24,791 nt of DNA from a virus: IMG/VR virus record IMGVR_UViG_3300025889_000893, positions 1 through 24,791 of that record; one strand, 5' to 3'. Below the pieces are notes generated by a model. That model made no database searches. It saw nothing but the letters and a program-made list of their open reading frames with translations, and was not told where the DNA came from. A program made the position numbers and the translations under genes. This document shows, one piece after another, positions 21,998 through 24,375 of this stretch. Within the stretch, counting starts at the first letter, position 1. Each line of letters opens with the position of its first letter.

Positions 21998-22012
21998 TAG
22001 GGAAAACCCCTA
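21998..22012 (+). promoter_or_regulatory. Putative operator, copy 1 (TAGGG-N5-CCCTA)
   Basis: TAGGGAAAACCCCTA is a perfect 5-bp inverted repeat around AAAAC, just upstream of the rightward early promoter's -35. A 14 of 15 match recurs at 24315-24329, upstream of the second promoter. It could serve both divergent promoters here. Confidence 0.6.
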
Positions 22013-22047
22013 TTGTGTGTGTTTGAAATAGATGTATAATAAACACA
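22013..22047 (+). promoter_or_regulatory. Rightward early promoter P1 with TGTGTT/AACACA arms
   Basis: TTGTGT (22013-22018), a 16-nt spacer and TATAAT (22035-22040). The arms TGTGTTT (22018-22024) and AAACACA (22041-22047) form an inverted repeat around the -10. The first gene starts at 22096, so the leader is about 50 nt. Confidence 0.65.
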
Positions 22048-22095
22048 TGACATCACAAAAGTATGGTGTCATATTCAACTAAAAGGGGAACTGAA

Positions 22096-22362
22096 ATGAG
22101 AGCAATTATCAAAGCGGCGTGTAACATTGATGAGTTGTACGCGACGTTGGAGGGCATATCTGCCGACGACGGCAAAGAATTTGAAGACTACACCGACGCC
22201 GAAATCGTGCATGAGGCCGAGTACGTTTTGTCCACGTTCCATGAGGCTGGACACATTAACGGCGATGCCTTGTCGGGTGATTTCGAGGATGGTCCTTATG
22301 ACCAAAAGTGGGCGCAAGGTGAGGTCCGTAAGCTCAAAGCGCTGATTAAGAAATTCAAATAA
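22096..22362 (+). CDS. First gene of the rightward early operon, hypothetical (88 aa)
   Basis: An acidic 88-residue protein: M-R-A-I-I-K-A-A-C-N-I-D-E-L-Y-A-T-L, then D-A-E-I-V-H-E-A-E-Y-V-L near 34-45 and a basic terminal helix (V-R-K-L-K-A-L-I-K-K-F-K). The frame is open from 22063, but ATG 22096 is the start because AAAAGGGGAAC precedes it by 7 nt, the same leader sequence that precedes other genes of this operon. No family recognised. As the first early gene it could be a host-takeover or regulatory protein. Confidence 0.8.
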   Translation: MRAIIKAACNIDELYATLEGISADDGKEFEDYTDAEIVHEAEYVLSTFHEAGHINGDALSGDFEDGPYDQKWAQGEVRKLKALIKKFK

Positions 22363-22367
22363 CCAAC

Positions 22368-22381
22368 GGGGCTTCGGCCCC
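22368..22381 (+). other. GGGGC-TTCG-GCCCC stem-loop after the first early gene
   Basis: A 5-bp GC stem closed by a UUCG tetraloop, followed by TTAAC rather than a U tract. It may act as a weak terminator or protect the 3' end of the first message. The next gene begins 18 nt further on with its own AGGAG. Confidence 0.6.
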
Positions 22382-22398
22382 TTAACAGGAGCATAACC

Positions 22399-22689
22399 AT
22401 GAGCAAAACACAACACATCGCACAGCAACGCCTAGCAGACGTTCGGTCAAAGTGGCGCACCGATACAGGGGACGCCGAGTTAGTCGAGGCTTACTTGCAA
22501 CTAGGTCGCAAGATGGGCGGCGGGTATACCGACGACGCCGCTGGAAAGCTGGCACGCATCTTTGATCTGAATGGCCGCCTGTCACCAGCACAGGTCGCCA
22601 ACGTGCGCCGTGCCGCACTGGAGTCCATGCGTCAACCAGTCGTTGAGCCTGTGCAAAAAAGAAAATACACACGTCGCACAAATGTTTAA
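22399..22689 (+). CDS. Hypothetical early protein with basic C-terminus (96 aa)
   Basis: A 96-residue protein with a helical body (H-I-A-Q-Q-R-L-A-D-V-R-S-K-W-R, E-L-V-E-A-Y-L-Q-L-G-R-K-M-G) and the segment L-S-P-A-Q-V-A-N-V-R-R-A-A-L near 61-74. The end, Q-K-R-K-Y-T-R-R, is basic and could touch nucleic acid. AGGAG precedes the ATG by about 8 nt; this differs from the AAAAGGGGAAC leader of most neighbours. No family recognised. Confidence 0.78.
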   Translation: MSKTQHIAQQRLADVRSKWRTDTGDAELVEAYLQLGRKMGGGYTDDAAGKLARIFDLNGRLSPAQVANVRRAALESMRQPVVEPVQKRKYTRRTNV

Positions 22690-22692
22690 AAC

Positions 22693-22710
22693 TGTGTTAC
22701 AGTAAACACA
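22693..22710 (+). promoter_or_regulatory. Possible internal promoter P3 with TGTGTT/AACACA arms
   Basis: TGTGTT-ACAGTA-AACACA is a perfect inverted repeat. It contains an extended -10 match, TG-T-TACAGT (22695-22703). No -35 is clear. The next gene starts at 22734 after AAAAGGGGAAC. Confidence 0.45.
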
Positions 22711-22733
22711 CTGCAATTTAAAAGGGGAACATC

Positions 22734-22958
22734 ATGCAAGTCAAAGAAAACGCAAAAGTGATCTATATGTTGACCGACAGCGGCATCTCCAAACTCAAGG
22801 AGCTGTTCGATAACGTCGAGTCAGATGCATTCATTGACACGCTCATGTCAGTTGAGCGGGCAATGGACCACGGCGACATCGCGTTCGCTGTCAACGGGGG
22901 TCAAACCCTCATCCTTGACGACTCAGACTTTGAGCCTGTCACTTACTTTTTGAATTAA
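22734..22958 (+). CDS. Small acidic early protein (74 aa)
   Basis: A 74-residue acidic protein: helical N-terminus (V-I-Y-M-L-T-D-S-G-I-S-K-L-K-E-L-F), a middle helix rich in D/E, then strands (D-I-A-F-A-V-N-G-G-Q-T-L-I-L) and D-D-S-D-F-E-P-V-T-Y-F. Charge and size suit a small protein that binds a host enzyme, but that is a guess. AAAAGGGGAAC lies 6 nt before the ATG. No family recognised. Confidence 0.8.
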   Translation: MQVKENAKVIYMLTDSGISKLKELFDNVESDAFIDTLMSVERAMDHGDIAFAVNGGQTLILDDSDFEPVTYFLN

Positions 22959-22972
22959 AAGGGGAATCCAAA

Positions 22973-23311
22973 ATGGAAATCAAAACCAATGCCGTTGAAA
23001 AAGCCTTGCGTCTGCTGGAAGCGGCCGGCGCGTCATTCCACGTCAAGCTGGATGATCAAGAATGGGGCAAAGCCATCGCCACGAAAGGCGCTCGAAAGGC
23101 GTCTAAATACCCGTATGGAAGCGTGACTGCGCACATCAAGCCATACCTGGCAAACGTTAAGGTAAACGACGCTGTGGCCGTGCCGTTTGGCGACTTTGAT
23201 GGCGATACGGTTCGCGCAACAATGTCAAGTTATTTGAGCGACAACTGGGGCAATGGCTCTTACATGATCCATAAAGCCAAGAACCAAATTGAAGTGTTGA
23301 GGTTGCTATGA
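22973..23311 (+). CDS. Hypothetical early protein preceding the recombinase (112 aa)
   Basis: A 112-residue protein with helix (V-E-K-A-L-R-L-L-E-A-A-G-A), a basic strand region (K-G-A-R-K-A-S-K-Y-P-Y-G-S) and a C-terminal segment A-V-A-V-P-F-G-D-F-D-G-D-T-V-R-A-T-M-S near 66-84, ending I-E-V-L-R-L-L. The V-P-F-G-D-F-x-x-x-x-V-R and I-E-V-L-R patterns suggest a small winged-helix-like fold, which I cannot confirm. It overlaps the recombinase gene by 4 nt (ATGA), so the two are co-translated. AAAAGGGGAA precedes the start. Confidence 0.78.
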   Translation: MEIKTNAVEKALRLLEAAGASFHVKLDDQEWGKAIATKGARKASKYPYGSVTAHIKPYLANVKVNDAVAVPFGDFDGDTVRATMSSYLSDNWGNGSYMIHKAKNQIEVLRLL

Positions 23312-23898
23312 TCGACGCATTGCTCAAAACCAACGTAAACGATCACGTTGAAAAGAAAAACGGTCTGTCGTACCTGTCCTGGGCATGGGCATGGGCAGAG
23401 GCGCTGAAAGCCGATCCCAAAGCCACGTTCAAGGTGGAGATGTTTGGCGACAAGTGCTTTATGGAAATCAACGGCACTGCAATGGTCTGGGTGACCGTCA
23501 CAATGTTTGACAAGCCCATGACCTGCCAGCTTCCAGTGATGGACTTCCGGAACAAAGCCATACCGAACCCAGACGCCTTTGCGGTCAACACGGCAATCAT
23601 GCGCTGTATGACCAAGGCATTGAGTCTGCACGGCCTTGGCCTGTACATATACGCTGGTGAAGACATCCCAGAACAGGCGCCAGCACCAAAGATCAGGCCA
23701 GTCCCAGAAATGGAACTACCTGAAGCAGAAAAAGTGGAACTGCAAGAGATTGCGGAACTGCTCAAAGAGTTGGTGACAACCGATCTGGATCACGCCAGAG
23801 AGGTCGTCGCAACATCAAATCTGGATGAGCCACAGAAGATTTATCTGTGGTCTCTGCTAGACTCCAAAACCCGTTCAGCATTGAAGAAAAAGGACTAA
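23308..23898 (+). CDS. DUF1071 / Sak3-type single-strand annealing protein (196 aa)
   Basis: These proteins anneal complementary single strands during phage recombination and belong to the Rad52-like group. The pattern is strong: N-V-N-D-H-V-E-K-K-N-G-L-S-Y-L-S-W-A-W-A at residues 9-28, N-G-T-A-M-V-W-V-T-V-T at 55-65, L-P-V-M-D-F-R-N-K-A-I-P-N-P-D-A-F near 75-91, and N-T-A-I-M-R-C-M-T-K-A-L-S-L-H-G-L-G-L-Y near 94-113. The last 75 residues are acidic and variable. The neighbouring gene downstream, with an SSB-like tip, overlaps by one nt (TAATG), suggesting joint action. Confidence 0.92.
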   Translation: MIDALLKTNVNDHVEKKNGLSYLSWAWAWAEALKADPKATFKVEMFGDKCFMEINGTAMVWVTVTMFDKPMTCQLPVMDFRNKAIPNPDAFAVNTAIMRCMTKALSLHGLGLYIYAGEDIPEQAPAPKIRPVPEMELPEAEKVELQEIAELLKELVTTDLDHAREVVATSNLDEPQKIYLWSLLDSKTRSALKKKD

Positions 23899-24158
23899 TG
23901 ATGCAATACGACAACACCAATCGCGGATCGCTTTTCAAGAACGACCGCAAAGAAAAAGAAACCCACCCCGACCTTAAGGGTTCGATCAACATCAACGGTC
24001 AAGAGTTCTGGCTGTCTGGCTGGTCAAAGGTTACCAGCAAGGGCGACAAAATGTTGAGCCTGTCTGTTACACCCAAAGAACAGCAAGCCGCCAAGCCCGT
24101 AGCCAAGTCAGCGCCCAAGCAAGCAGAGCCTGATTTCGACGACGATATGCCGTTTTAA
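23898..24158 (+). CDS. DUF736-like protein with SSB-like acidic C-terminal tip (86 aa)
   Basis: Residues 3-60 (Y-D-N-T-N-R-G-S-L-F-K-N-D-R-K-E-K, then I-N-I-N-G-Q-E-F-W-L-S-G-W) resemble the DUF736 pattern. After an alanine/lysine/proline linker the protein ends D-F-D-D-D-M-P-F at 79-86, which nearly equals the C-terminal tip of E. coli SSB (D-F-D-D-D-I-P-F). In SSB that tip recruits replication and repair proteins. No OB-fold is obvious. The frame is open upstream to 23847, but ATG 23898, which overlaps the recombinase stop (TAATG), is the start; ATG 23901 is a second possibility. Confidence 0.85.
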   Translation: MMQYDNTNRGSLFKNDRKEKETHPDLKGSININGQEFWLSGWSKVTSKGDKMLSLSVTPKEQQAAKPVAKSAPKQAEPDFDDDMPF

Positions 24159-24167
24159 GGGGGGATC

Positions 24168-24317
24168 ATGGACACACTTAAAAAATACTGTTCAATCCGA
24201 ATGTCAATGGACTTGGTCAACCGCATCAGCACAATGGCCAAGGCAGAACAACGGTCGTTCACTGGCCAAGTGATTTACTTGATCGAATACGCGCTAAAAG
24301 CATTGACTAAAAAATAG
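24168..24317 (+). CDS. Arc-type ribbon-helix-helix regulator (49 aa)
   Basis: A 49-residue gene: residues 7-13 (Y-C-S-I-R-M-S) would be the DNA-contacting beta strand, 14-27 (M-D-L-V-N-R-I-S-T-M-A-K-A-E) helix A, and 31-45 (F-T-G-Q-V-I-Y-L-I-E-Y-A-L) helix B. Spacing, the S in I-R-M-S-M-D-L, and R29-S30 before helix B match Arc/MetJ-type repressors, which bind inverted repeats as dimers of dimers. A GGGGGG ribosome-binding site precedes the ATG. The stop TAG is the first three bases of the putative operator copy 2. It is too short for many gene finders. Confidence 0.85.
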   Translation: MDTLKKYCSIRMSMDLVNRISTMAKAEQRSFTGQVIYLIEYALKALTKK

Positions 24318-24329
24318 GGAAAACACCTA
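24315..24329 (+). promoter_or_regulatory. Putative operator, copy 2 (TAGGGAAAACACCTA)
   Basis: Fourteen of fifteen bases equal copy 1 at 21998-22012. The single change (C to A) breaks one pair of the inverted repeat. It starts with the stop codon of the ribbon-helix-helix gene and lies just upstream of promoter P2. Confidence 0.6.
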
Positions 24330-24332
24330 TAC

Positions 24333-24375
24333 TTGAGTGTGTTGTGGTGTGTTTATAATTTCATACCGCAACACA
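24333..24375 (+). promoter_or_regulatory. Rightward early promoter P2 with TGTGTT/AACACA arms
   Basis: TATAAT at 24354-24359, with TTGAGT (24333-24338, 15-nt spacer) as the likeliest -35. GTGTGTTG (24337-24344) and CAACACAC (24369-24376) form an 8-bp inverted repeat; a second TGTGTT lies at 24348-24353. The gene starts at 24390. Confidence 0.6.

Follow-up and report, generated by a model that had tools for sequence, protein, structure and literature searches.

A 15-bp inverted repeat at phage early promoters recurs upstream of betaproteobacterial catabolic genes and is probably the site of a host activator

The co-option by phages of a site used by a host activator is known in kind from CtrA of the Alphaproteobacteria, a host protein shown to bind and regulate sites in phages, the independent gain of which has been inferred (PMC9437464). 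Here we analyse a 15-bp inverted repeat (the 15-mer, of the form TAGG-N7-CCTA) in the DNA of a freshwater phage, IMG/VR record IMGVR_UViG_3300025889_000893, the whole of which (24,791 bp) is referred to as the window. The 15-mer resembles the CtrA case in that a host-type site recurs at the promoters of unrelated phages, and differs from it in sequence, in host group and in apparent role, which is carbon catabolism here (under a candidate regulator) and the cell cycle for CtrA (PMC9437464). The ACTU motif of the CrbS/CrbR (MxtR/ErdR) system is likewise an imperfect inverted repeat located just upstream of sigma-70 promoters, in that case of acetate-use genes; however, ACTU is described in Gammaproteobacteria, and examples such as TACTACCATCGTCGAAT do not resemble TAGGGAAAACACCTA when compared by eye (PMC5715377). 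AccSR, a master regulator of aromatic catabolism in Azoarcus that responds to organic acids and has relatives in Burkholderiales, is described as a repressor, unlike the activator that we propose for the 15-mer (PMC6456745). Searches by motif string and by topic, covering part of the literature and judged by the titles and abstract openings of the papers listed, yielded no published description of the 15-mer sequence, of its host group or of its regulon.

In the window the 15-mer is present as the inverted repeat TAGGGAAAACCCCTA (site 1, 21998..22012, plus strand) and as the near-palindrome TAGGGAAAACACCTA (site 2, 24315..24329, plus strand). An earlier note on this DNA, made from the sequence alone, had interpreted the pair as a shared phage operator. 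The two sites indeed differ at a single one of their 15 positions, and their ends lie 22 and 24 bp ahead of the TATAAT hexamers at 22035 and 24354. Scanning of the full record reveals no third copy at up to 3 mismatches; the note had seen none either. Site 1 abuts the early promoter P1 (TTGTGT, 16 bp, TATAAT; 22013..22040, plus strand), which was read from the sequence and does not appear in a consensus promoter scan, and site 2 precedes the early promoter P3 (a weak TTGAGT, 15 bp, TATAAT; 24333..24359, plus strand), also read from the sequence; the centres of the sites are found approximately 42 and 44 bp, respectively, before the predicted transcription starts. Shuffled versions of the window contain on average 0.83 matches with up to 3 mismatches, and 20 of 100 contain at least two. 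The two window hits have no mismatch, yet the pattern itself was built on them; taken alone, the pair is modest evidence, and the evidential weight of the 15-mer comes from other genomes.

In viral contigs the exact 15-mer gave at least 120 matches and the reversed pattern likewise at least 120; raw counts of the viral 15-mer therefore prove nothing, and the context of the sites was compared. The 22-mer TAGGGAAAACMCCTAGAAAATA, the 15-mer extended by GAAAATA, was found by a complete scan in 114 viral stretches. After removal of near-duplicates (114 to 79 for the 15-mer, 112 to 44 for the 22-mer and 116 to 73 for the reversed control), the 79 and 44 sites correspond to 110 distinct, non-redundant viral sites. 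Promoters were scored with E. coli -10 and -35 matrices, a score above 7 being considered good. Such a score is reached downstream of 55 of the 110 sites and on the other side of 19, compared with 12 v 15 of 73 for the reversed control. In the 55 downstream promoters the best -10 clusters at 22–25, 32–36 and 42–46 bp from the end of the motif, with peaks at approximately 23, 33 and 44 bp that are one helical turn apart (nR2 26–27 at 10–11 bp, 27 at 10.5 bp), and the -10 distance of site 1 in the window falls into the first of these peaks. The control exhibits no clear period of 10–11 bp (nR2 1.6 at 10.5 bp, at most 2.8). Distances separated by single turns, in one orientation, were taken as the signature of an activator site, and are observed for the viral sites and not for the reversed control; because of this position and helical phasing, an activator fits the 15-mer better than a repressor does. 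Most copies are found at promoters, and the wide scatter away from promoters that the earlier note had named as speaking against its reading is not what is seen.

These contigs carry additional sites with up to 2 mismatches, numbering 19 in the 78 loci of one set (4 for the reversed pattern) and 19 in the 44 loci of the other (0 for the reversed pattern). A search with a 32-base consensus query retrieved 40 records of named phages, most of which match only in part and at the promoter half; those that match at the 15-mer half include Limnohabitans phage DC31 and Xylophilus phage Lumi. One site with 1 mismatch (TAGGGTAAACACCTAgaaaata) was identified in DC31 and two with 2 mismatches (GAGGGTAAACCCCTAgaaaata) in Lumi, the same scans of both phages revealing no reversed pattern within 2 mismatches. 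The hosts of DC31 and Lumi both belong to the Comamonadaceae. In Lumi (L235, 444; L236, record 80940) the motif is present in both copies of an apparent terminal repeat.

The same site is enriched in regulatory regions of host-type, betaproteobacterial genomes. For the family of a Limnohabitans metagenome-assembled genome (MAG), the 15-mer with at most 1 mismatch was found in 129 of 299 genomes. The hits total about 215, as against 55 for the reversed pattern, which a separate search located in 13 of 100 genomes, and a second betaproteobacterial family sample yielded 117 hits v 35 at the same threshold. The enrichment over the reversed pattern is thus 3–4-fold in both samples, and is absent from a sample of the order Pseudomonadales (59 v 73). 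The totals for the four genome samples, the fourth being discussed below, were summed by hand, and the taxon labels are those of the MAGs on which the samples were centred. A variant, TAGGGAAAACCCTTA, carried by a viral relative of the window, L003, recurs in host genomes too. Conversely, the extended 22-mer was recovered in only 4 stretches of a 257-Gb collection of bacterial genomes: two contigs (L125 and L126) contain phage replication or packaging genes, one (L124) gave no match for the one protein tested, and one (L127) runs on into ordinary bacterial genes. Three betaproteobacterial genomes (L171, L172 and L178) share an extended stretch that includes CCCTAGGGAAAACCCTTATTCTT, located ahead of a small open reading frame divergent from a PAS-domain protein; it may be another motif.

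We examined 119 host sites. A gene of at least 120 codons starts within 300 bp of 84 of them, and recurrent gene families account for 53 of these 84, compared with 0 of 7 in the controls (15 control sites). Gene names were assigned by us from the sequences; the frame-based coding test was uninformative in these GC-rich hosts, in which long spurious frames are common. The gene groups are a non-random sample, since stretches were selected by variant or recurrence: 20 were picked for the variant TAGGGAAAACCCTTA, and most of the others because they had an exact hit or a variant that recurs. The recurrent families comprise a GNAT acetyltransferase (10), crotonase (8), an acyl-CoA ligase with a neighbouring Crp-like gene (7), TRAP dctP with a neighbouring MarR-like gene (5), boxC, involved in benzoate use (4), dctB (3), a TonB receptor with a neighbouring LacI-type gene (3), and others; in one of the recurrent groups, with three members, the reading frames are doubtful. 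Single sites precede lutA (lactate) and a DUF485 gene, the usual partner of actP, and outside the 84-site count cstA and putA were encountered. The spacing is shared with the phages: by eye, a -10-like hexamer is located 22–23 bp from the site in 6 of 7 dctP promoters, as for site 1 of the window, and at 44 bp in two boxC promoters. Local regulators vary from operon to operon, and the shared site therefore points to a common factor. Beside the 15-mer in four stretches (L143, L144, L218 and L227), between the acyl-CoA ligase and the Crp-like gene, there is a TTGTCG-N6-CGACAA-like palindrome that looks like a site of that Crp-like protein.

Taken together, we consider it probable that the 15-mer is the site of a host-encoded betaproteobacterial activator of carbon metabolism which phages have borrowed. 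The host, a betaproteobacterium of the Comamonadaceae or a closely related group, would supply an activator that binds the 15-mer and normally turns on the genes by which organic acids, aromatics and other alternative sources of carbon are taken up and broken down. By placing the 15-mer approximately 42–44 bp upstream of its early starts, the phage would position the bound activator where it can touch RNA polymerase, so that host proteins would express the early genes at once; later, a phage repressor, perhaps a ribbon-helix-helix protein, might shut the same promoters through another inverted repeat, one that surrounds the -10. Infection could in this way be tied to the carbon status of the host. 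Burkholderiales are abundant in fresh water, as are the phages that infect them, and to our knowledge little is known about how transcription starts in these phages. If the proposed activator exists, a site common to the early promoters of phages and the carbon-uptake genes of their hosts would tie infection to host nutrition and point to an uncharacterised global regulator. More tentatively, and with less confidence than in the borrowing itself, the 15-mer could mark a hitherto undescribed global carbon regulon of the Burkholderiales, a functional counterpart of that of CRP, into which many freshwater phages plug their early promoters, often via the phage-specific GAAAATA, so that infection would start strongly on organic acids or when carbon is short.

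Several observations weigh against a borrowed host site. The Limnohabitans genus sample (60 genomes) is the exception to the host enrichment, with 30 hits v 26 for the reversed pattern, although single conserved sites nonetheless recur in it. The GAAAATA extension is absent from the host catabolic sites that were read; some host sites (GNAT) lie 25 bp before the start codon and may act in another way; and the phasing of host sites is weak when taken alone (n=32; the highest nR2 is 2.8). The host of the window phage is itself one that we infer. In the more distant named phages the 15-mer is degenerate or missing: MW202710, the Sak protein of which is 82% identical to that of the window over 64% of the query, has no exact 15-mer but five forms with 3 mismatches, 2 of 5 appearing promoter-linked by eye. 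Finally, in a search for an autoregulated LuxR-type gene, such as that of a NarL/FixJ response regulator, none of the GerE-family genes examined in two host genomes (22 and 5 detected) is preceded by a close 15-mer; autoregulation of a regulator is not obligatory. Nor was an AceE-like neighbour of the GerE genes recovered. The acetate and TRAP targets had suggested CrbR as the regulator; it was set aside since its published motif does not match the 15-mer (PMC5715377). AccR of Azoarcus is a lead for the host protein, because AccSR is described as a carbon control conserved in some betaproteobacteria (PMC6456745).

The 15-mer might instead belong to an activator family encoded by many freshwater phages, the host copies representing a separate, similar motif. 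The 22-mer fits such a reading, being nearly exclusive to phages: it occurs in 114 viral stretches and in 4 stretches of bacterial genomes, two of the latter being the contigs with phage genes. However, the viral sites and the host promoters have their sequence and their spacing in common, and no short DNA-binding family stands out as common among the viral contigs listed; the most widespread protein families there are a DUF1376/primosomal protein (54 loci) and Sak (42), many loci being fragments outside of which a regulator could lie. A phage-encoded activator seems unlikely. Even less credit can be given to a generic promoter part (an A-tract, an UP-like element or a nucleoid protein site) with no dedicated regulator, which we regard as highly improbable: the core of the 15-mer is A-rich and GAAAATA stands at the place of a proximal UP element, yet the sequence specificity is high and enrichment is confined to the betaproteobacterial samples.

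The interpretation of the earlier note, that the 15-mer is an operator of the phage's own regulators, has to be divided. As a shared regulatory site of early promoters the 15-mer stands: L003, which encodes a ribbon-helix-helix protein 92% identical to that of the window, keeps it at three early promoters, with one exact copy and two with 1 mismatch, each preceding a promoter. The conservation among related phages that the note had proposed as a check thus holds for L003 and does not extend, for the exact 15-mer, to the more distant MW202710. Repression by the 49-residue ribbon-helix-helix protein or by the 111-residue protein of the window is, on the other hand, very unlikely. The TAGG-N7-CCTA form would suit a dimer (judged from its sequence, it could suit several regulator families), and site 2 lies directly at the 3' end of the ribbon-helix-helix gene, an arrangement also present in L003 and L127. 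However, the ribbon-helix-helix protein is clear in only 4 of the 235 viral loci scanned, with one weak and one doubtful match in addition, while the 15-mer occurs in very many phages and at bacterial catabolic promoters; nearly all motif-bearing contigs are without the protein. Within the group that has the protein, some early promoters are without the 15-mer: L062 and L095 carry it in exact form at the first early promoter (L062 also with 2 mismatches at a second), but the promoter following the gene of the protein lacks it within 2 mismatches, and it is likewise missing at 22693 in the window. The observation is thus more general than the earlier note supposed, and its phage-operator reading of the 15-mer is probably wrong.

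The early promoters of this group carry, moreover, a different, family-specific inverted repeat, TGTGTT...AACACA. In the window it occurs on the plus strand only at 22018, 22693 and 24338, each time at an early promoter: as TGTGTTT-N16-AAACACA around the -10 of P1 (22018..22047), a candidate phage operator; as TGTGTTACAGTAAACACA (22693..22710) at the third early promoter; and as TGTGTTG...CAACACA around the -10 of P3 (24338..24375). Dinucleotide shuffles of the window contain a mean of 0.2 occurrences, and three were reached in 0 of 200. The repeat or a slight variant is found at early promoters of L003, L062, L095 and L127, some of them without the 15-mer. It is located just downstream of the motif in only 2 of the 110 viral sites, both in the ribbon-helix-helix phage group, and a looser form is present anywhere in 13 of 235 viral loci v 3 of 120 control loci. 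Arc repressor-type operators are comparable, the window having an Arc-like protein and promoter-overlapping inverted repeats; unlike such an operator, the 15-mer does not track the Arc-like protein, whereas TGTGTT...AACACA does. As a candidate phage operator this repeat is thus preferable, from its sequence and placement, to the 15-mer, and among candidate proteins that might bind it the ribbon-helix-helix protein comes first.

Structural genes (terminase, portal and others) are oriented leftward in the window, and early genes rightward from approximately 22.0 kb, among them that of the Sak annealing protein (23308-23898). The 49-residue Arc-like ribbon-helix-helix protein (24168..24317, plus strand) was assigned from PHROG 3178 (E 2e-4) and Pfam RHH_5 (E 0.0015, below the Pfam cut-off), and the TAG stop codon of its reading frame forms the first three bases of site 2; the 111-residue protein gave no PHROG or Pfam match. 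The third early promoter, at approximately 22693-22710, has no 15-mer in the window and one with 1 mismatch in its L003 counterpart. No published isolate close to the window was found at the DNA level. L127, a contig of a bacterial MAG, begins inside the ribbon-helix-helix gene, the 15-mer lying directly 3' of it. Its positions 1–150 comprise the end of the gene, the 15-mer and the inverted repeat, followed by ABC-transporter and cytochrome genes; a prophage edge, a domesticated remnant and a misassembly are all possible explanations for this start. The P1 transcript is predicted to begin with a stem-loop that has a 9-bp stem (22047..22072, plus strand), and folding of 22047-22100 gives -10.9 kcal/mol (z -2.5), 4 of 200 shuffles being equally good. 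By eye, 5' hairpins such as ACTGC-loop-GCAGT are seen downstream of the promoter in many other motif-bearing contigs.

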